Shown here: positions 45,465 to 56,199 of the stretch, piece after piece
How positions within the stretch are numbered: the stretch's first letter is position 1
Layout of the letters: each line of letters opens with the position of its first letter
Source: Balneolaceae bacterium
GTDB taxonomy: Bacteria; Bacteroidota; Rhodothermia; Balneolales; Balneolaceae
Assembly: GCA_034521495.1 (NCBI GenBank)
Contig: JAXHMK010000009.1
Coordinates: 427,001-491,000 of the forward strand
Direction: 5' to 3'
Length of the DNA stretch: 64,000 nt
The notes under the pieces: generated by a model
Told to the model about the DNA's origin: nothing
Databases searched by the model: none
Seen by the model: the letters and a program-made list of their open reading frames with translations, nothing else
Program-made: the position numbers and the translations under genes

Positions 45465-45877
45465 GTTTTTAGTTTAAAAATACAGTTTTCTATTGACACT
45501 CAACTTAATATCCAATAGAGTGATTGGATTTTCGCGGAATTCAAAAAATCGAATATAGATCAACAAGAATACTTATTGCAGAAGCATGCCTTCGGCATAG
45601 TTGGAGTGATTAATTCATGCGCACTCGTACCGTTTTCTTATGAATCATTTGGGTTGTAATTTATTTTGTCAAAATTGCCATACTTATTCCACTTTTCAAA
45701 AGGAAAACTCACTCAGGATCGGTTTTCTCTTTTCTGGAGGCATGAATAAACGACTGCCAAAATTTCTTGATTTAAAGAGGCTTTCTCTATGCATATTTAT
45801 TAGACAGTTCTTCCAAAAACGAATCTCTGACTGAGGCGAAGGTTATTGATTATTTTAAATCCAGTTGATATAGATAT
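45465..45877. other. Intergenic region without a supported gene
   Basis: AT-rich sequence upstream of rplM and the SWIM protein. A short ORF at 45640-45834 has no recognisable features or start signal. I see no RNA gene or strong hairpin. Possibly promoter regions for both genes and old debris. Confidence 0.5.
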
Positions 45878-47668
45878 ATGAGTAAAGAAAATGAAAAATG
45901 GATGCTTCAAGATTTTGAAAAATGGGTGGATTCAACCATCACATCAAGGGGGCAAAGTTATTATAAATATGGTTCTGTAACGGATCTTGAGCAGATTAAA
46001 AAAAATGTATGGATTGCCGAAGTTGAAGGAAGCCATCTTTATACTGTGGATGTTCAGATAAATGACGATTTTGAGATCTGTCTGGCTTCTTGTAACTGCC
46101 CGTATGATCATGGCCCCATTTGTAAACATATTGTAGCGGTTTTGTTCGATCTGCGAAATCAGTTTTTTGAATCGGATGAGTATGGCAAGATCAAACCGGA
46201 ACAATCACTCTCTACAATAGATACCGGTCAAACGGTTGAACAGGAACTTGACGCTTTGATGTCACAAATTTCTCAGGACGATCTCCGGGCATATCTAAAA
46301 GAAATTCTGTTGAAAGACCGAAATTTACGCTCACGATTCAAGATGCGATTCTCTTCGCTGAAGGAAGCTGAAACCTCCGATGATTACAAAGAGATAATCC
46401 GGGATTTACTGGCTCCCTTTGAACAGCATCAATACGATGATTATTACTACGATTATGATGATCAGGGATATGGAGATATGTGGGTTGATACACAGGAAAA
46501 TTATGATATCCTGGTTGATCTGTTAGAGAAAGCAAAACAGTACCTGGAATCCGGAGATCTGGAAATGGCAATATCCATCTGCAAAGCCATGATCGAAGAA
46601 GCAGAAGCATCGATGGACTATATATACGATTCGGATGGAAGTATCTGGGGGTTGGTTGACTCTGCATTTGAGACACTTTTTTGGATTGCCGAGTCGGGTG
46701 CGAATAAACAGGTTAAGAATGACCTGTTTGAATATGGCATTTCAAATGCACGAAAGCAGAGCAGCGGCCGTGGAGACCGGTTCAATAATTTTCTTGATTT
46801 GGCGATCGCTATGGCAAGCCATTCTGATCAAAACAAGCGTATCGAACGATTATTACTTGATTGTATTCAGTCAAATCATCAGGTCAATACATTCTCCGGC
46901 AGCGGTAACTACAGGAAAGAGCGGTTGATTTCAAAATTGATAGAACTGTATCAAACACTGGGTGAAAATGAAAAGATAAACAAACTCCTCGAACAACATA
47001 AAGATCTGCCTGGAATCAGAACGAAACTGATTGAGCAAGCCTGGGAAGATGAAGACCTCGAAACTGTAAAAACACTGGCCAGGGAAGGGAAGCAAACATC
47101 CAAGTATTCTGGTTTCTCAAATAACCAGTGGACTCAATGGTTACTGAAAGCAGCAGAGGCAGAAAACGACATCAAGAAACAGCGTAAATATGCCAAAGAA
47201 CTCCTGTTTTCTACTAAAAATATCGATTGGTACAAACGGCTAAAAACATTGTATAAGAAAGAGGAGTGGGAGAAAACGCATCAATCCATACTCAAAAAAA
47301 TAAGAGGAAATCAGAATACTACGTGGTTTGCTCCATCCATTATTCCTGCTATCTATATTGAGGAAAAACAGTGGAAAAAGCTCCTCGATTTTGTGCGGAA
47401 ATATTCAAGGTTGGAAACAATCAGAGAATACGACCACTGGCTGAAGAAGCACTATTATGAAGAGTTGATGGAACTGTACCGGGAGGCCATCTTACAGTAT
47501 ATGGAGAATCACACCGGGCGAAAATACTATCGGACAACTTGCGGATATTTTGACCGAATGAAAGGTTTGGGAGGAGTTGAAGAGGCATATGAGTTGGCAG
47601 ATATTTTGAAACGGCAGTACTCCAATCGACCCGCGATGCTCGAGGAGTTTAAGAATGCGGGGTATTAA
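45878..47668 (+). CDS. SWIM zinc-finger protein
   Basis: A 596-residue protein with a SWIM zinc finger: C72 and C74 (SCNCPYDH) and C82 and H84 (ICKHIVA), a CxC-x7-CxH arrangement that binds zinc and probably nucleic acid or protein. The long C-terminal part is helical and rich in charged residues, TPR-like, including a tyrosine/aspartate-rich stretch near residue 190 (YDDYYYDYDDQGYG). In some bacteria SWIM proteins sit with Snf2 helicases, but none is here. It precedes hsdR by 124 bp on the same strand; whether it belongs to the restriction locus is unknown. Confidence 0.85.
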   Translation: MSKENEKWMLQDFEKWVDSTITSRGQSYYKYGSVTDLEQIKKNVWIAEVEGSHLYTVDVQINDDFEICLASCNCPYDHGPICKHIVAVLFDLRNQFFESDEYGKIKPEQSLSTIDTGQTVEQELDALMSQISQDDLRAYLKEILLKDRNLRSRFKMRFSSLKEAETSDDYKEIIRDLLAPFEQHQYDDYYYDYDDQGYGDMWVDTQENYDILVDLLEKAKQYLESGDLEMAISICKAMIEEAEASMDYIYDSDGSIWGLVDSAFETLFWIAESGANKQVKNDLFEYGISNARKQSSGRGDRFNNFLDLAIAMASHSDQNKRIERLLLDCIQSNHQVNTFSGSGNYRKERLISKLIELYQTLGENEKINKLLEQHKDLPGIRTKLIEQAWEDEDLETVKTLAREGKQTSKYSGFSNNQWTQWLLKAAEAENDIKKQRKYAKELLFSTKNIDWYKRLKTLYKKEEWEKTHQSILKKIRGNQNTTWFAPSIIPAIYIEEKQWKKLLDFVRKYSRLETIREYDHWLKKHYYEELMELYREAILQYMENHTGRKYYRTTCGYFDRMKGLGGVEEAYELADILKRQYSNRPAMLEEFKNAGY

Positions 47669-47792
47669 GTTCAATAATAGATCTGCCGGTGAATAGGTAG
47701 TTCATCGATTTGTTGGCAGAAGGGGGTTAATATTCCACTTTTCCTAACTTCTTGTATATTAAAGCCTCAAAGAACTACTTGAAGGGTACGCT

Positions 47793-50161
47793 ATGAATCG
47801 ATCGGAGCTTTCGGAAACTGACATTCGAACCAAATACATTACACCTGCATTGATGGATGCCGGTTGGGATCTGCATAAACAGATTCGCGAGGAGAAGTAT
47901 TTTACTGATGGCCGGATTCGGGTTCGGGGATCGGTTGCGTCAAGAGAAACAGGAAAGAAGGCCGATTATATTCTCTATTACAAAAGAGGAATTCCACTCG
48001 CTGTCATTGAGGCCAAAGATCACAATCATTCTATTGGTGCCGGAATGCAGCAGGCTTTGGATTATGGCGATATTCTGGATATACCGTTTGTTTACAGCTC
48101 CAATGGATCGGGCTTTTTAGAACATGACCGCACAAAGACGGAAGGTTCCATTGAGACTGAATTGACAATGGAGCAGTTTCCTTCTCCAAAAGAGTTGTGG
48201 CAACGCTATTGTAACTATAAAGGATTCGACAATAAGCAGGAGAAACTGGTTAAGCAGCCCTATCACTTTGAGCAAGATGGCCGAACTCTTCGCTATTACC
48301 AGGAAATAGCTGTGAACCGAACAGTGGAGGCGATTGCGAAAGGCCAGGATCGAATTTTATTGGTCATGGCAACTGGTACCGGCAAAACATTGACAGCCTT
48401 CCAAATCATATGGAGAATCTGGAAAGCCGGTGAGAACAAACGAATTCTTTACCTGGCTGACCGAAATATCCTGGTGGATGATCCCATCCGTAAATACTTT
48501 GGTTCGCTGAAAGATGTGGTTCATAAAATTCAGCGGGGAAAGGTTAGCAAGGCTCATCAAATCTATTTTGCATTGTATCAGGCAGTGACCGGAAATGAAG
48601 ATTATTCGGATGTCTTCAAAGAGTACTCCAGGGATTTCTTTGATCTGATTATTATTGATGAGTGTCACCGCGGGAGTGCAGCAGCCGATTCAGCCTGGCG
48701 CAGAGTGTTGGAATATTTTGACAGCGCTACTCACATCGGTTTAACTGCTACTCCGAAAGAAACGAATACGGTTTCCAACATCCACTATTTTGGTGAGCCG
48801 ATCTATACCTACTCTCTGAAACAAGGAATTGAAGATGGATTTCTTGCACCTTACAAAGTGGTGCGGTTTACCATTGATAAAGACGCTGAAGGCTGGCGGC
48901 CGGAGGATGGATTTGTCGATAAGTATGGTAACATCGTACCGGATCGTGAATACAACCAAAAAGATTATGACCGAGAATTGATTCTTGAAAAACGAACGGA
49001 GTTGGTTGCCCGAAAAGTCACGGAATTCCTCAAAGAGACCGACCGATATGCCAAAACCATTGTTTTCTGTATTGATATTGATCATGCGGAACGAATGAGG
49101 CAGGCACTGGTCAACCTGAATGCAGACCTGGTGAACAAGGATAGCCGATACGTGATGCGAATTACGGGTGATGAAAAAGCGGGAAAGATGGAGCTGGATA
49201 ACTTTATGGATGAAGAAGAAAGCTATCCGGTTATTGCCACGACATCAAAACTGCTGACCACCGGCGTAGATATTCCCACCTGTAAGTTCATCGTTCTGGA
49301 TGCGAATATTGGTTCCATGACGGAATTCAAGCAGATTATTGGAAGGGGAACCCGCATCAGTGAAGATTACGGGAAGATGTATTTCACCATCATGGATTTC
49401 CGAAATGTAACCCGCCACTTTGCCGATCCGGACTTTGATGGAGAACCGGTACAAGCATCAGAATTTGGTCCCAATGATTCTCCCGTTCCGCCACAAGAAG
49501 AGGAAGAGCCGCTCGGTAATTATCCCGATTCTCCTGAAATACATGAAGATGGATATGAATGGGAAGACGATGGTGGTGAAATAACCGATGGCGATGTTCG
49601 CAGATTCTATGTAGACAATGTAGAAGTAAAACTCCTGAATCAACGGGTTCAGTATTATGATGATGACGGGAAGTTGGTCACGGAATCTCTGAAAGATTAT
49701 TCCCGCAAGAAAATTAATGAGAAATATGGCTCTCTGGATGAATTTCTCCGCAAGTGGAAGGACTCCGAGAAGAAGCAAGCCATCGTCGAAGAACTGGAAG
49801 AAACCGGAGTTGTATTTTCAGAACTCAAGAAAGAGGTAGATAAAGACCTCGATCCGTTTGATCTGATTTGCCATGTAGCCTTTGAACAACCTCCCCTTAC
49901 CCGACAAGAACGGGCAAATAATGTGAAGAAGCGAAACTATTTTGGAAAATATTCGGGAACTGCTAAAGAATGTACTGGAAGCTCTGCTTGGATAAGTACG
50001 AAGATGAAGGCCTCGAAAACCTGGAAGATATGAATATTCTTCGCTTAGATCCTTTCAATAATATGGGTACACCGATGGAGATTATTCAGGAATTTGGCGG
50101 AAAAGATGAATACCTGAAAGCGATTCATGAGATTGAGGATGAGCTTTATAAATCAGCATAA
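47793..50161 (+). pseudogene. hsdR: Type I restriction endonuclease subunit R (HsdR, EcoAI-like) with C-terminal frameshifts
   Basis: HsdR cuts and translocates unmethylated DNA using ATP. The N-terminal nuclease domain has D58 and the E73-A-K75 pair (VIEAKDHN); Walker A is ATGTGKT at 193-199, the helicase DEAD box is DECH at 289-292, and the second RecA domain carries the usual TTSKLLTTGVDIPTC. The main frame stays open to 50033 (746 residues). Homology continues in another frame to 50161 (LDKYEDEGLENLEDMNILR...). Removing an extra T near 49971 and an extra G near 49990 restores the expected VLEALLDKYEDEG. As written, the C-terminal region that binds the methylase is lost. Confidence 0.88.
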
Positions 50162-51235
50162 TGAAACTTAATAATGAAAAAGTATCCAGACTAAGAGATA
50201 AGATTAAAGACTCTTTCGGATTCGTCCTAATCATAAAACCATATATATAGATGTAGGTGGAAACATTGGTAGATTTAATTAGAACAGCATCAAATTGATA
50301 CATGGACGACGAGGATCAGGTAAATCCTTTCTATTAATTCAGTTTGGCAAAAATGATGATTGCTGTAAGCCAAGGTTCGATTCCTATACAAGATGGTATT
50401 GATGCTGATGAAAAGTTACAAAGCTATCAGATAGTCTAATAAGGATTGTATTAGACGTATTGAATCATGCCAAGTAGCAAATTCCAAACTACAATTCTGG
50501 ATTTCAGATTACGATTTAAATAAAGCAATAGACGAATTAAGGACTACTTAACCTGACTGACGATAGCATAGTGTTAAAAAAAACGATGAGTATGTCAAAG
50601 AAGTTCTGCAGATGATAGATCTGGAAATGTAAATTTTTCAGGAGGGACTAATTCAATCAAAGGGAGGAAATGAATATATAGAAGACTAAAGATAGTATTA
50701 CTTGCAAGACGACTTCTGATTTTAGAAATGTATTGACATGCAGCTGTTATCAGCATTTTTACTAAGTCATGAGCAGTGATGGCGTCGCAGTAGCTGAGAA
50801 GCTTGCTAATTTGCTAGGTACGGCGTCGAAGCTTGTCTCAGAAGAAATTAGATGCACAAGTGTGGATGGTTATAGGTTACCTGGAGGTGCAAATACGAAT
50901 GAGCAGTCTAAAAGAAGCAATTTCTAATACGTAATGCTCTTATAGGCCTTATTACTCCACGCAGGCTTGAAGTCATTAGCTATGTTTTGTCTGTCAGTCA
51001 AGCTATGGTCAGCAAGACGGGGGACTTGCCGAAGCGACAATTATCAGACGTTCAATGCTTCAGTTAATTACAGAATTGAGCCAGTTCCTTAACCGTGAAG
51101 AAGAGAAACCACAGTTATGCTGTCAAGATTGATTGATGAGCCTTATAACGTCGTCAAATTCAATGGTTCGTAAAATGTTTCACTCCCGAACCCCTAAATC
51201 TGTCCATTATCCGACACGGATCGGATATCCATTCA
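50161..51235 (+). pseudogene. Decayed P-loop ATPase gene between hsdR and hsdM
   Basis: No ORF longer than 60 codons survives, but coding segments are readable in alternating frames. The ATG at 50161 overlaps the hsdR stop (TAATG). A Walker A motif, GRRGSGKS, is encoded at 50304-50327 after IDVGGNIGRF. Later fragments read WISDYDLNKAIDEL, RSGNVNFSGGTNSIKG, VDGYRLPGGANTNEQ, NALIGLITPRRLEVISYVLS and RLIDEPYNVVKF. The pattern is a single ATPase of about 350 residues with many small indels. Accessory ATPases inside type I loci are known; this one is broken or badly assembled. Confidence 0.6.
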
Positions 51236-51244
51236 AGACAATTT

Positions 51245-52618
51245 ATGCGCAGAAGAGGTGCCGGAGTTGACGGCGATGCGCAGCGGATCTCTCAACTTGG
51301 ATGGATGCTGTTTCTGAAGGTTTTTGATGATTACGAAACCGAGCAGGAGCTCATGACCGATGACTATGAGTCTCCCATCCCAGAAAAGTACCGGTACCGC
51401 AACTGGGCGCATGATGAAGAGGGAATCACCGGGGATGCCCTGCTGGAGTTCATCGATGAGCTGTTCAAGGAGATGAAGGAGATGGAGCTGGACGAGAAGA
51501 GTCCCCGGCTGGCCTTTGTGGTGAAATCCATTTTTGAGGATTCCTACAACTACATGAAATCGGGGACGCTGCTCCGGCAGGTGGTGAACAAGCTGAATGA
51601 GATCAACTTCAACAAGAAGGACGACCGCCATCAGTTCAACGATCTGTACGAGAAGATCCTGAAGGACCTGCAAAGTGCGGGCAATGCCGGGGAGTATTAC
51701 ACGCCCCGTGCGGTCACCAAATTCATGACGCAGATGATCGATCCCAGGATCGGGGAAACGGTGTTTGATCCGGCGTGCGGAACGGGTGGATTCCTGGTGG
51801 ATGCCATCGAGCATATGAAGGAGCAGTCGTCATCCATTGAGGATCTGAAAGCCTTTCAGGAGAATATTCAGGGCGTGGAGAAAAAGCCGATGCCGCACAT
51901 GCTCTGCACCACCAACCTGATCTTGCACGGCATTGATGTGCCGAAGGTCCGGCGGGATAACACCCTCAACAAGCCGTACAACGAGTACAAAGCCAAAGAC
52001 CGCGTGGATGTGGTGCTGACCAATCCTCCCTTTGGCGGACAGGAAGAAGACGGCATCGAAAAGAACTTTCCGGCACAGTTTCAGACGCGGGAAACGGCCG
52101 ACCTGTTTTTGGTGCTCATCATGCGCCTGCTGAAAGAAGATGGCCGGTGCGCCCTGGTACTTCCCGACGGATTTCTGTTTGGGGAAGGCGTGAAAACCCG
52201 CATCAAGGAAAAACTGCTGAAGGAGAATAACCTGCATACCATCGTGCGCCTGCCCAAAGGCGTGTTTGCGCCCTACACCAGCATCAACACCAATTTGCTG
52301 TTTTTTGAGAAAGGCGGCTCCACCGATGAGGTGTGGTATTTTGAACACCGCTATCCCGAAGGCTACAAGAGCTACTCCAAAACCAAACCCATCCGCATTG
52401 AGGAGTTTGATGTAGAAAAGAGTGGTGGGAATGACCGCAAAGAAACCGATCAGGCCTGGAAGGTAACCACCGAAGAAATCGAGAAGCGGAATTACAACCT
52501 CGATATAAAGAACCCGAACTCCGAGGAAAATCAGAGTTACGATGTAGAGGCTTTGCTGGCCAAGCGGAATAGTCTGAATGAAGAGATTCAGAAATCTGAG
52601 TCGTTCGTTGCTGAATGA
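51245..52618 (+). CDS. hsdM: Type I restriction-modification DNA methyltransferase HsdM (N-terminus short)
   Basis: The N6-adenine methylase subunit. SAM-binding motif I is DPACGTGGF starting at residue 175, catalytic motif IV is NPPFGG at about 260. The N-terminal helical domain contains AGVDGDAQRISQLGWMLFLKVFDD, which normally follows about 20-25 residues that are absent or unreadable here (upstream sequence is disturbed). The 457-residue ORF is otherwise intact. Base composition is clearly more GC-rich than the decayed region upstream, a sign of separate origin of the segments. Binds HsdS and HsdR. Confidence 0.9.
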   Translation: MRRRGAGVDGDAQRISQLGWMLFLKVFDDYETEQELMTDDYESPIPEKYRYRNWAHDEEGITGDALLEFIDELFKEMKEMELDEKSPRLAFVVKSIFEDSYNYMKSGTLLRQVVNKLNEINFNKKDDRHQFNDLYEKILKDLQSAGNAGEYYTPRAVTKFMTQMIDPRIGETVFDPACGTGGFLVDAIEHMKEQSSSIEDLKAFQENIQGVEKKPMPHMLCTTNLILHGIDVPKVRRDNTLNKPYNEYKAKDRVDVVLTNPPFGGQEEDGIEKNFPAQFQTRETADLFLVLIMRLLKEDGRCALVLPDGFLFGEGVKTRIKEKLLKENNLHTIVRLPKGVFAPYTSINTNLLFFEKGGSTDEVWYFEHRYPEGYKSYSKTKPIRIEEFDVEKSGGNDRKETDQAWKVTTEEIEKRNYNLDIKNPNSEENQSYDVEALLAKRNSLNEEIQKSESFVAE

Positions 52619-52654
52619 GCTGAAGGAGACCTTAGCGTAAAACACCTCTCCCAA

Positions 52655-52674
52655 CCCTCTCCTCGAGGAGAGGG
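52655..52674. repeat. CCCTCTCC/GGAGAGGG palindrome (family E)
   Basis: CCCTCTCCTCGAGGAGAGGG is a perfect 20-bp palindrome between hsdM and the DUF559 gene. Related palindromes lie at 53209-53228 and 53288-53307 inside and after the DUF559 ORF and at 60103-60155. Confidence 0.85.
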
Positions 52675-52738
52675 CAGAAGTGCTCTTGTGAGCACTTCGC
52701 TTTTGGTTAACAGTAATTTAATGGTTTTAAATCTATCT

Positions 52739-53371
52739 ATGGCAGATGATCAAAAACATAGCGCTCCCCTCTCCCGTGGAAGAAGGGCCGGAGGTGAGGA
52801 CGAAAAGGGCAAGAAATCGCCAAAACTCCCTCTCCACGCCGGTGCGGAGCCGCATCAGTTTAAGTACGCCCGTCAGTTACGCCGAGACATGACCAAAGCA
52901 GAAAAAGTTCTCTGGGAACATCTGCGTGCTCGGCGTTTTTTAAATATGAAGTTTAGAAGGCAGCATCCGATTTTGGAATTTATAGCAGACTTTTATTGCC
53001 ACAAATTAAAACTGATTGTGGAAGTGGATGGCGAGTATCACGAAGAAGATGATGCAACATATTACGATAGCGAGCGGACGAAAGAGCTGAAACGATACGG
53101 GTATTCTGTAGTTCGTTTTTCGAATGAGCGAATTTTAAAAAATATAGATGAGGTTTTAGTGGAACTGAAGGAGTTAGTTACTCGACTCAGAAAAACCTCT
53201 CCCCAAATCCCTCTCCAGCAGGAGAGGGGCTTTCGTGGGCAATCAATAGATTCTGCTGAAATTCATATTACAAGCCAGAAATCCACACCCTCTCCTCGAG
53301 GAGAGGGCCGGGAGAGGTGGAAAACAGAGGAGACAAAACATGAACCTAACCGACCTACTGGACGAATTTAA
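52739..53371 (+). CDS. DUF559 (Vsr-like) endonuclease domain protein
   Basis: The core (starting FKYARQLRRDMTKAEKVLWE at about 52858) is a DUF559/MTES-1575 PD-(D/E)xK fold: LEFIADFYCHKLKLIVEVDG supplies the D..E-V-D acidic residues, followed by ERTKELKRYGYSVVRF. Related to the Vsr mismatch endonuclease. Start is uncertain (GTG 52688, ATG 52721 or 52739), because the first ~40 codons and the last ~45 codons are translations of family E palindromes and flanking DNA, so real length is probably near 110-130 residues. Genes like this often sit between hsdM and hsdS; its role there is unknown. Confidence 0.7.
   Translation: MADDQKHSAPLSRGRRAGGEDEKGKKSPKLPLHAGAEPHQFKYARQLRRDMTKAEKVLWEHLRARRFLNMKFRRQHPILEFIADFYCHKLKLIVEVDGEYHEEDDATYYDSERTKELKRYGYSVVRFSNERILKNIDEVLVELKELVTRLRKTSPQIPLQQERGFRGQSIDSAEIHITSQKSTPSPRGEGRERWKTEETKHEPNRPTGRI
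53209..53307. repeat. Two family E palindromes at the 3' end of the DUF559 gene
   Basis: CCCTCTCCAGCAGGAGAGGG (53209-53228) and CCCTCTCCTCGAGGAGAGGG (53288-53307) lie about 60 bp apart, read through by the DUF559 frame. Together with the copy at 52655 they bracket this gene. Confidence 0.75.
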
Positions 53372-55009
53372 CGTCGTCATAGACACCGCCGAAGGGCTGA
53401 CCGAACTCCGCTCCCTCATCCTGGGACTGGCCGTTCGCGGAAAACTGGTTCCCCAAGATCCCAATGATGAACCGGCTTCGGAGTTGTTGAAGAAGATTGA
53501 GGCAGAGAAAGAACGGCTTTACGAAGAAGGTGAAATTAGGAAACCTAAAGAAAGCCAAAGTTATTAGATGAATGTGATTTCGAAGACTATGCCAAATAAT
53601 TGGCTTTGGACATTAATTTCACATCCATAGTTGATGTGATATCCACTTCCGGGCACAAAGTTATAAAGAGGATTTCGAGGATGAATGCCAGTTTATCCAG
53701 ATGAACTGATTTGGGGCAGTCATTTATCGGGAGTTATTGCTGATAATGAAAGTAAATTATATTAAGATTACCTCGGGATTTAGTGATCTTTGGTGATCAC
53801 ACCTGTGAAGTAAAATATAGTTGATTTTAGATTTTATAGCAGGTGCAGATGGCATAAAGATATCTTCGTCCTATTTTAATCAATGCTAAATTTTTTTATT
53901 GGTTTATATATCAGGCTCCATTAAGAGACAGAGGTTATGGGCGTCATTATAAAGTTTTAAAAAGAACTTGAAGTCATTCCACTCCCTCCACTCGCCGAAC
54001 AACACCGCATTGTTCAAAAAATAGAATCCCTGTTTGCGGAAGTGGATGAGCTGGAAGCAAAGCTAAACCGGCAAACCAAACTGGATGAGAAGCTGCAGTT
54101 GGCCGTCAATGCCGAAGTGCAACAAGCCCCGGATGCCGAAGCCTCCAAATCCGCCTGGAGCTTCATCACCTCCAACTTCGACACCCTCTACCACACCCCG
54201 GAGGCTATCGACAACCTCAAAAAGAACATCCTGAACGAGGCCGTCCGCGGAAGGCTCGTCCCCCAAAACCCCAACAACGAACCCGCAGCTGAACTCCTCA
54301 AAAAGATCGAAGCTGAGAAACAGCGGTTGTATGATGAGGGAGAAATTCGGAAGCCGAAGGATCTGCCGCCGGTTAAAGAAGATGAGATTCCGTTTGAGAT
54401 ACCGGAGAGTTGGGAGTGGTGTAAGATTGGTCAGATAAATGTAGCTTCAAGTTAAAGACGGAGTACATATAATCCAAAGGATTATGTAAATGATGGAGTA
54501 CCTTTTTTGCGATCTAAAGATATTGGAGATAGGAAGGTGGATTTTGATAACTCGAATATGTATCATAAGAGAAGATACTGAGAAGTTCAAAAGATACATC
54601 GGAATGCCAAAAGCTGGAGATATACTGATAGCATGTATTGGAAGGGTACGATAGGAAGTACTGTGGAGAATGATCTGTGAATAATACTTAAAGACGATAT
54701 TCTGTTCAAAATTGATAGTGTTATACTATTGAATCGATATTCTGATCTATCTAAATAAGTTCTGAAATTTTCTACAATCCAGATTATGGAGTAGAGTGCT
54801 ACAGGATCAGCATATAATGCATTGACAATAACCAAAATTAAAAACTCAGTTTTCCACTACCTCCACTCGAAGAACAACACCGCATTGTCCAGCGCATCGA
54901 AGAGCTCTTTGCCATCTGCGACCGCTTCAAAGCCCAACTGCAGCAGCGCCAAGCGGTGAATGAACGGTTGGTGAAGGGGTTGGTGGGTGAGGTTTTGGAG
55001 GGGAGTTAG
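53340..55009 (+). pseudogene. hsdS: Type I restriction specificity subunit HsdS with both target-recognition domains frame-disrupted
   Basis: HsdS recognises the split DNA target. Conserved region 1 is open (TAEGLTELRSLILGLAVRGK, KKIEAEKERLYEEGEIRKPK) and ends in a stop at 53567. The first recognition domain (about 53568-53970) is readable only in pieces, e.g. LVIFGDHTCEVKY and GADGIKI and RDRGYGRHYK. The central conserved region 54000-54455 is open (PLAEQHRIVQKIESLFAEVDELEAKL, NEAVRGRLVPQNPNNEP). The second recognition domain (54456-54840) again needs frame changes (YNPKDYVNDGVPFLRSKDIG). The last part, LPPLEEQHRIVQRIEELFA, is open to TAG at 55007. The ATG at 53340 has GAGGAG upstream. Confidence 0.85.
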
Positions 55010-55038
55010 AATGGATAAAAGTTATATAAATCACACAT

Positions 55039-55055
55039 GTTCGCAAATTGCGAAC
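55039..55055. promoter_or_regulatory. Candidate operator of higBA
   Basis: GTTCGCAA-A-TTGCGAAC is a perfect inverted repeat of 8 bp arms centred 28 bp before the higB start. HigA antitoxins bind such palindromes and repress their own operon in relatives. Confidence 0.65.
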
Positions 55056-55082
55056 TTTTTTGTAGCTTAGTGCCGTTATGAT

Positions 55083-55427
55083 ATGAGAGTACATCTGATT
55101 AAAGAAAAAACAGTACTGGATTATGCGACAAAACATGCTACATCAGCTGGTGCGTTTGAACGGTGGGTTGAAATAATAAAAAAGGCTGATGTAAACAAGC
55201 CACAAGATTTTGTAAACCTGCTTGGTCGGAAAAATGTAGATATACTGGGTAAGAATAGCGATCGTATCTGTTTTGATGTAGGCGGAAATGATTATAGGAT
55301 CATTTGCTCCTATTACTTTAATGATACCATTGAAACGGTAACATTATTTGTAAAATGGATTGGTACTCACGCGGAGTATGATGCGTTAAACAATCAAGAT
55401 AAACAGTATACAGTTGAAAAGTTTTAA
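55083..55427 (+). CDS. higB: HigB-family mRNA interferase toxin
   Basis: A 114-residue HigB_toxin (PF09907) protein starting RVHLIKEKTVLDYATKHATS and containing NRICFDVGGNDYRIICSYYF-like residues (here DRICFDVGGNDYRIICSY) and FVKWIGTHAEYDAL. These RelE-fold RNases cleave mRNA on the ribosome. Toxin precedes antitoxin, as is usual for hig loci; the gap to higA is 18 bp. Confidence 0.93.
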   Translation: MRVHLIKEKTVLDYATKHATSAGAFERWVEIIKKADVNKPQDFVNLLGRKNVDILGKNSDRICFDVGGNDYRIICSYYFNDTIETVTLFVKWIGTHAEYDALNNQDKQYTVEKF

Positions 55428-55445
55428 AGGGTTAAGGGGAAAACA

Positions 55446-55934
55446 ATGAAATACAAAGTGATTAAAAGTGACGATCAGTATCTTGAATACGCTGATCGAC
55501 TTGAGGAATTGGTGAGTAATGGCTTGGATAGTCAAGATGCAATTGATGAATATGAGTTACTCTACTTGTTGATTCGAGACTGGGATGATAAGCACAATTC
55601 AGTGCCAGAAATGGACCCTGTAGAGTTTATTAAATCGTTGATGGAAGATAAAGGTTTGAAGCAAACAGATTTAGTTGAAGTAGCGGGCGTAGGTAAAAGC
55701 ACGATCTCAGAGATTCTCAATTACAAAAAGAGGATGTCGAAAAAGGTGATTCGAAATCTCGCCAACCACTTCAAGATTCAGCAAGAAGCCTTAAACAAAT
55801 CATACCGGCTTGAAGGTGAGGGCATGACCTATGATTATGAGAGTAATTTTAGCTCTATAAACGTAGGAAAAGAAGAGGGCACAGCGAAGACTATGAGTAG
55901 ATCGACAAAAGGATTACCAATAAAAACATCTTGA
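55446..55934 (+). CDS. higA: HigA-family antitoxin
   Basis: A 162-residue HTH antitoxin. The XRE domain (about residues 62-112) reads DPVEFIKSLMEDKGLKQTDL and GVGKSTISEILNYKKRMSKK. The N-terminal region (EYELLYLLIRDWDDKH) is the HigA toxin-binding type. A C-terminal tail of about 40 residues past NKSYRL is unusual and low in conservation; it could be an old frame extension. Forms a pair with higB and probably represses via the palindrome at 55039. Confidence 0.88.
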   Translation: MKYKVIKSDDQYLEYADRLEELVSNGLDSQDAIDEYELLYLLIRDWDDKHNSVPEMDPVEFIKSLMEDKGLKQTDLVEVAGVGKSTISEILNYKKRMSKKVIRNLANHFKIQQEALNKSYRLEGEGMTYDYESNFSSINVGKEEGTAKTMSRSTKGLPIKTS

Positions 55935-56199
55935 CCAAAAAAATCAGATTGTCCGGCTACCTTACTGCTAAGAATAAAGAAATAAATTAAATTCTGTTTA
56001 CACTCGTTTAGATCACTCTCTTTCGATGATCAATCCAAAACAGATGTATGAAGAGTTCTTGCGAAGTCGGGAAAAAGCATAATCATCACTCACCAATCAA
56101 GTTCATTGAGCTTATTTATAAAGAAACTGAATCAAAAAACCCTTATTTTTAAAGACTCAAAAGAAATTTTAAACCTGTTGAAAATCAACTGAGGAATTT

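Follow-up and report, generated by a model that had tools for sequence, protein, structure and literature searches.

Frame breaks in the recognition domains of a Balneolaceae hsdS gene are most likely assembly errors clustered in variable DNA

Why should the gene for a Type I specificity subunit be frame-broken in both of its target-recognition domains (TRDs) and open in the conserved regions around them? Such an hsdS gene lies in the window analysed here, 64,000 nucleotides of a Balneolaceae bacterium whose 4.57 Mb genome is assembled in 22 contigs with a completeness of 97.4%. The locus is of Type I, with helicase and nuclease-type domains in HsdR and an N6-adenine methylase as HsdM. An earlier note on this DNA had offered two explanations, namely that the recognition domains vary between strains and so retained assembly errors, or that some process changes these domains. 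Our analysis favors the former in outline. We are confident that the reading frame of hsdS is broken by mistakes in the assembled sequence, most of them small insertions and deletions (indels), and we regard the broken pattern as most likely an assembly artefact and not a real biological feature.

Over the hsdS span examined (53340-55009) we counted, for each block, the minimum number of lesions needed for read-through, a lesion being a frame change or an in-frame stop. The two TRDs together require 11 lesions and the conserved regions, 821 bp in total, require none (p ~0.001), so that within the gene the contrast described in the earlier note is borne out. Lesion counts in the broken blocks are about equal to those of random sequence of matching composition. 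For the two short conserved regions an absence of lesions is not unusual, since 17 of 200 and 142 of 200 random sequences also have none, while for the central conserved region it is unusual, being matched by just 2 of 200. That the broken blocks would encode recognition domains rests on homology. The peptides GDHTCEVKY and YNPKDYVNDGVPFL, which had been put forward as marks of genuine recognition domains, are indeed present in frame within hsdS. The pieced-together TRD2 matches Pfam Methylase_S above the cut-off (8.8e-8), and the read-through TRD1 falls below it (6.4e-4, 20.4 bits against a cut-off of 22). TRD2 contains in-frame stops that bring no lasting frame change, a point against the error explanation. 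As assembled the hsdS gene is unreadable, and a genome search with PF01420 missed it altogether. Distant homologues of TRD2 are open in other genomes, and neither domain has a close homologue: the best matches reach 35-38% identity (35% for TRD2) among 395 genomes of the phylum for TRD2 and 92 genomes of the family for TRD1.

Table. Coordinates in the window of the accessory island, of the Type I genes and of the blocks of hsdS.
Feature	Position	Strand	Observations
Whole accessory island	45473..56101	.	SWIM-domain gene, Type I restriction-modification genes and HigB/HTH pair
hsdR, restriction subunit	47793..50161	+	Pfam ResIII, EcoEI_R_C, HSDR_N; open save for a frame break near the 3' end
Slot between hsdR and hsdM	50162..51226	+	at least 12 lesions over 1065 bp, close to random-sequence level
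hsdM, modification subunit	51172..52640	+	Pfam N6_Mtase 1.9e-75, HsdM_N; central 1371 bp open
DUF559 gene between hsdM and hsdS	52739..53371	+	Pfam DUF559 1.2e-38; open, 0 lesions in 630 bp
hsdS N-terminal conserved region	53340..53549	+	open, 0 lesions in 210 bp
hsdS TRD1	53550..53976	+	frame-broken, at least 6 lesions in 427 bp
hsdS central conserved region	53977..54430	+	open, 0 lesions in 454 bp
hsdS TRD2	54431..54849	+	frame-broken, at least 5 lesions in 419 bp
hsdS C-terminal conserved region	54850..55009	+	open, 0 lesions in 157 bp

For comparison we used the four closest full-length Type I loci of relatives (L051-L054) among 15 loci, leaving out L035, L039, L045 and L047 as repeats, since they are the same alignments as L054, L052, L051 and L053. 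HsdM is 84-94% identical to that of these four relatives, and their hsdS genes are open, with 546-569 aa. At the nucleotide level the hsdS conserved regions are 74-88% (N-terminal), 80-90% (central) and 81-92% (C-terminal) identical to theirs, with no frame-changing gap against any of the four and no indel found in our genome only (the central region being compared in three of them for the latter). Synonymous-codon differences exceed the others in 11 of the 12 conserved-region comparisons, the exception being 13 to 14. The TRDs and slot genes of the relatives, by contrast with these regions, do not align with the window at the DNA level.

Contrary to what had been claimed, the damage is not limited to the recognition domains. 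The slot between hsdR and hsdM, with its dozen or more lesions, is probably a broken gene containing an ATP-binding-loop-like stretch; its read-through gives only weak ATPase matches (0.038-0.042), and of 395 genomes searched a single one apart from our own has a match to it, likewise weak. In the four relatives the corresponding slots (L051:4285-5406, L052:4189-5271, L053:4283-5401, L054:4469-5431) hold open genes of 320-373 aa without DNA-level alignment to ours, and the position resembles a cargo slot within the Type I operon. Measured against the same relatives, hsdR has two 1-nt extra bases of its own (about 49.97-49.99 kb) as well as a 3-nt insertion that keeps the frame, near 49.5 kb, and the indels specific to our hsdM are confined to its two ends, at about 51.2 and 52.6 kb. 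All the extra bases at the hsdR 3' end and at both hsdM ends lie within about 200 bp of unalignable blocks. From hsdR to hsdS the minimum number of lesions is 23 in 1911 bp of unalignable blocks versus 1 in the remaining 5188 bp, a comparison in which the blocks were picked after the damage had been seen and hsdM was taken without its two ends, so that its p of 1e-12 is descriptive. Two blocks absent from the relatives at this place, the DUF559 gene and the HigB/HTH pair, are nevertheless open here; variable between species but open, they indicate that not all variable blocks are damaged. A 32-nt inverted repeat (94%), a CTCTCC-type element at 52643-52674 and 53288-53319, frames the DUF559 gene, and a DUF559-like gene stands at the same place in L054 and in none of L051-L053. 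Gene and repeat together may form a small mobile unit.

We read the whole island as accessory because its two flanks are only 67 bp apart in a relative, G015 (L113), where the insertion spot is empty, and enclose a different insert of 3.3 kb in G011 (L114). By our own reading of the sequence the flanks carry ribosomal-protein genes on one side and an aconitase gene, of 903 aa, on the other. This core DNA is clean. A 3.7-kb stretch with the 903-aa gene has a match in 88 of 89 family genomes, our own included (at most three candidates being scored per genome). Together with the DNA upstream of it, the gene can be aligned to G015 for 2.8 kb free of gaps; against G011 BLAST gives two 1-base gaps, both of which a three-way alignment places in noncoding DNA. 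Counting indels found in a single genome, and omitting a nested fifth block, we obtained 5 here, 3 in G015 and 3 in G011 over about 11.9 kb of coding core, and 7, 3 and 11 respectively over 998 nt of noncoding core near the window; the indel density of the island on contig C19 described below would predict about 20 there. The rRNA genes match their Rfam models at full length (SSU 1530.6, LSU 2756.3 and 5S 85.2 bits; compared with the Rfam models only, the alignments being seen in part). Core DNA, coding and noncoding, thus shows no excess of indels specific to this genome, and the errors are local.

Is the window's hsdS alone in this genome? A search with Methylase_S found two further places, one on contig C4 and one on C19. 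In each of them stops interrupt the match and an open hsdM precedes it, although the end of the C4 hsdM seems broken too. On C19 the hsdS has 3 lesions in 541 bp of TRD1, 5 in 544 bp of TRD2 and none in the 241 bp of its central conserved region. The contrast is less clean on C4, where the initial 475 bp of hsdS need 6 lesions, the final 585 bp need 2 and a 229-bp stretch that holds conserved sequence needs 1. All three hsdS loci found in the genome are therefore broken. A further N6 methylase (hsdM-like) gene, at C7:97903-98907, is in four pieces, adjacent pieces lying in different frames by their coordinates. Some further leads were dropped. Near an integrase gene on C4 (L090 12120-19530, C4:512-519.5 kb) a 7.4-kb stretch lacks any ORF as long as 100 aa and contains diverged repeats about 2.6 kb apart and an element of about 120 bp that recurs in other family genomes; it was rejected as evidence of errors, its counterpart in G015 having only one ORF of at least 120 aa. 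A genome-wide rate from gaps in ORF coverage (35 sequences of the genome, with L027, L090 and L020 flagged) was abandoned, as the rRNA operon lies in L020 and repetitive DNA in L090. A frame HMM based on codon usage, taken as a first look only, found few breaks since it scored AT-rich accessory genes as noncoding, though it called one near the end of the C4 hsdM; a version with a "damaged coding" state merged intact neighboring genes and was set aside.

Neutral decay produces more substitutions than indels. Because the TRDs have no close homologue, we compared gaps with substitutions in another island, at C19:110-116 kb (L027 10198-15536). This is a defence-type island that has no hsdS and is broken here, with a DUF4007 gene, a gene of the 1076-aa type and a PAPS-reductase-like gene; its counterpart in G234 (L104) has three open genes, encoding DUF4007, a protein of 1076 aa that matches no Pfam family and a PAPS-reductase-like protein of 395 aa. 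Such gene sets are known from phosphorothioation-type defence, to which this island may belong. The C19 block has matches longer than 1 kb in 3 of 88 other family genomes (at most three candidates scored per genome). In a second genome, G420 (L105), the island of this type also looks broken: its alignment to L104 (68% identity) opens 81 gaps over 4.4 kb, and it has one ORF of 120 aa or more.

Aligned to L104 by BLAST at 73% identity, the C19 island has 131 gaps in 5.4 kb (24/kb), versus 4.6, 4.6 and 8.5 gaps/kb in hsdR controls of 71-77% identity. A second aligner gives 112 gaps in 5.3 kb (about 21/kb) versus 2-6/kb in controls (hsdR 6, 5 and 14 gaps in about 2.4 kb, hsdM 8 and 8 in 1.4 kb); the gap density thus exceeds that of the hsdR controls roughly 3.5- to 10-fold. 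Mismatch rates at the first, second and third codon positions are 0.099/0.045/0.491 in the 395-aa gene, 0.189/0.107/0.504 in the 1076-aa gene and 0.159/0.105/0.431 in the DUF4007 gene, with 0.135-0.180/0.057-0.103/0.489-0.567 in the hsdR controls. Relative to the third position, the first two are at control level in the 395-aa gene and slightly raised in the other two. Stop codons occupy 8 of 1667 aligned codons on C19, versus 0, 0 and 1 in the hsdR controls. Part of the differences on C19 may therefore stem from wrongly substituted bases, from gaps set in the wrong place or from relaxed constraint, but the substitutions fall far short of what decay with this many indels would be expected to bring. 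Of the 112 gaps, 38 can be clearly placed; 26 of these are extra bases and 12 are missing ones, 24 are single-base, and they lie mostly outside long homopolymers. Small indels at such density, with substitutions not raised to a similar degree, argue for sequence errors rather than decay. This signature was found on the C19 island alone.

Could the gene nevertheless be truly lost, or actively changed? Decay of the specificity gene together with other defence genes of the strain would fit with all three of the hsdS loci found being broken, and with the slight rise of first- and second-position mismatches in two of the three C19 genes; moreover, loss of the specificity subunit is a known route by which restriction-modification systems decay. 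We nevertheless consider real pseudogenes very improbable, given conserved regions of the same gene with no lesions and mostly synonymous differences, and the several-fold gap excess on C19 at codon-position profiles near the controls. We find still less credible the second explanation of the earlier note, that shuffling, phase variation or retroelement-driven diversification is aimed at the recognition domains. The edges of the damage do lie near the TRD borders, and Type I systems with duplicated hsdS genes and inverted repeats are known, as a passage of PMC7394358 describes. Here, however, genes other than hsdS are damaged as well, and the search for alternative cassettes and recombinases that the earlier note proposed, which we made genome-wide, yielded nothing to support such a process. 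The genome has no second hsdS copy similar at the DNA level (just a 24-base match at E 0.5). Some inverting Type I loci encode a recombinase of their own; here tyrosine recombinases (PF00589), the sole recombinase class searched, are absent from the window's contig, their five matches being on C2, C4, C7, C10 and C17, and the single reverse-transcriptase match in the genome is on C17. The stretch 44-64 kb contains 19 inverted-repeat pairs, and in none of them is a conserved region of hsdS matched with DNA outside the gene; one weak pair, of 27 nt at 74%, lies inside hsdS.

Granted that the breaks are errors, why are they where they are? One possibility is that a frame correction against protein references mended the conserved genes only and left novel genes and gene ends broken. 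The indels of this genome at gene ends, and the open state of members of such common families as DUF559 and HigB, would accord with this, and a reference-based correction tool is described in an excerpt of PMC12007338. Such a step would, though, predict errors in intergenic DNA and rRNA, whereas the noncoding core has 7 indels against 3 and 11 in the two other genomes, with about 20 expected, and the rRNA genes match their models at full length. With noncoding core DNA clean, mending of protein genes alone by reference therefore fails to explain the pattern, and we hold it unlikely; as this evidence covers core DNA only, a local version may have acted inside islands. AT-rich DNA missed by the polishing reads is, to our judgment, slightly less probable again as the cause. 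The broken blocks have 33-37% GC and most open blocks of the island 41-55%, but the HigB/HTH pair is open at 37% GC, and in a 720-kb sample 32 ORFs with 150 aa or more, together 22 kb and counted as ORFs rather than confirmed genes, are open at 37% GC or less. AT-richness may nonetheless contribute to the errors.

Since the broken blocks are among those that cannot be aligned between species, the errors are best explained by low or mixed read support in DNA that varies between strains, which we consider likely to be their cause. Under this explanation the Type I backbone (hsdR, hsdM and the conserved regions of hsdS) would be common to the sampled cells, covered by many reads and hence correct, whereas the TRDs and the slot between hsdR and hsdM would be exchanged between strains, so that each version would be covered by few reads and keep the errors of raw long reads. 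A few errors would also reach into the conserved sequence adjoining the variable blocks, over roughly its last 200 bp. The read depth, the long-read technology and the variation within the sampled population are all inferred, the last because variation is seen between species. A precedent is reported in part of PMC8302730: strain-separated long-read contigs had less depth and were not polished, which probably left them with indel frameshifts and reduced their completeness, indels being named as a primary source of the frameshifts; likewise, an excerpt of PMC12007338 describes indels that fragment genes in long-read assemblies. Taken with the damage to the C4 and C19 hsdS genes, the C7 methylase gene and the C19 island, the predominance of indels on C19 and the clean core, this upholds in outline the earlier suggestion of errors left in strain-variable parts. 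The near-control level of substitutions would fit too few reads somewhat better than an averaging of unrelated alleles.

What does this imply for the use of such assemblies? In this assembly it would be wrong to tally the broken hsdS and other defence genes as pseudogenes; nor is the problem exposed by the completeness score of 97%. It is conceivable, though we put it at slightly less than an even chance, that the error clusters record a polymorphism of the population, in which cells of one species share the Type I backbones and differ in the TRDs and slot gene, and that such clusters could reveal hypervariable domains in published assemblies without reads. If this were true, the error pattern would also mark the domains that vary between strains.

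The locus may finally be set beside known systems. As in other Type I systems with exchangeable recognition domains, the genes follow the order hsdR, hsdM, hsdS, and the conserved regions are shared between relatives while the TRDs cannot be aligned; what differs is that hsdS is unreadable as assembled and that the operon also contains a variable slot and the gene of the DUF559 family. With phase-variable Type I loci carrying duplicated hsdS genes, as far as a passage of PMC7394358 describes them, it has in common the variation of TRDs between conserved regions, but here there is no duplicate hsdS in the genome, no repeat in 44-64 kb joining hsdS to outside DNA and no tyrosine recombinase on the contig. 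A further likeness is to long-read assemblies with indel errors, in which, according to the excerpts of PMC12007338 and PMC8302730, genes are broken by small indels, tied in the strain-separated contigs of the latter to lower depth and to lack of polishing. In contrast to what those excerpts describe, the errors here are clustered in the variable blocks of an otherwise clean assembly, down to the level of single protein domains.
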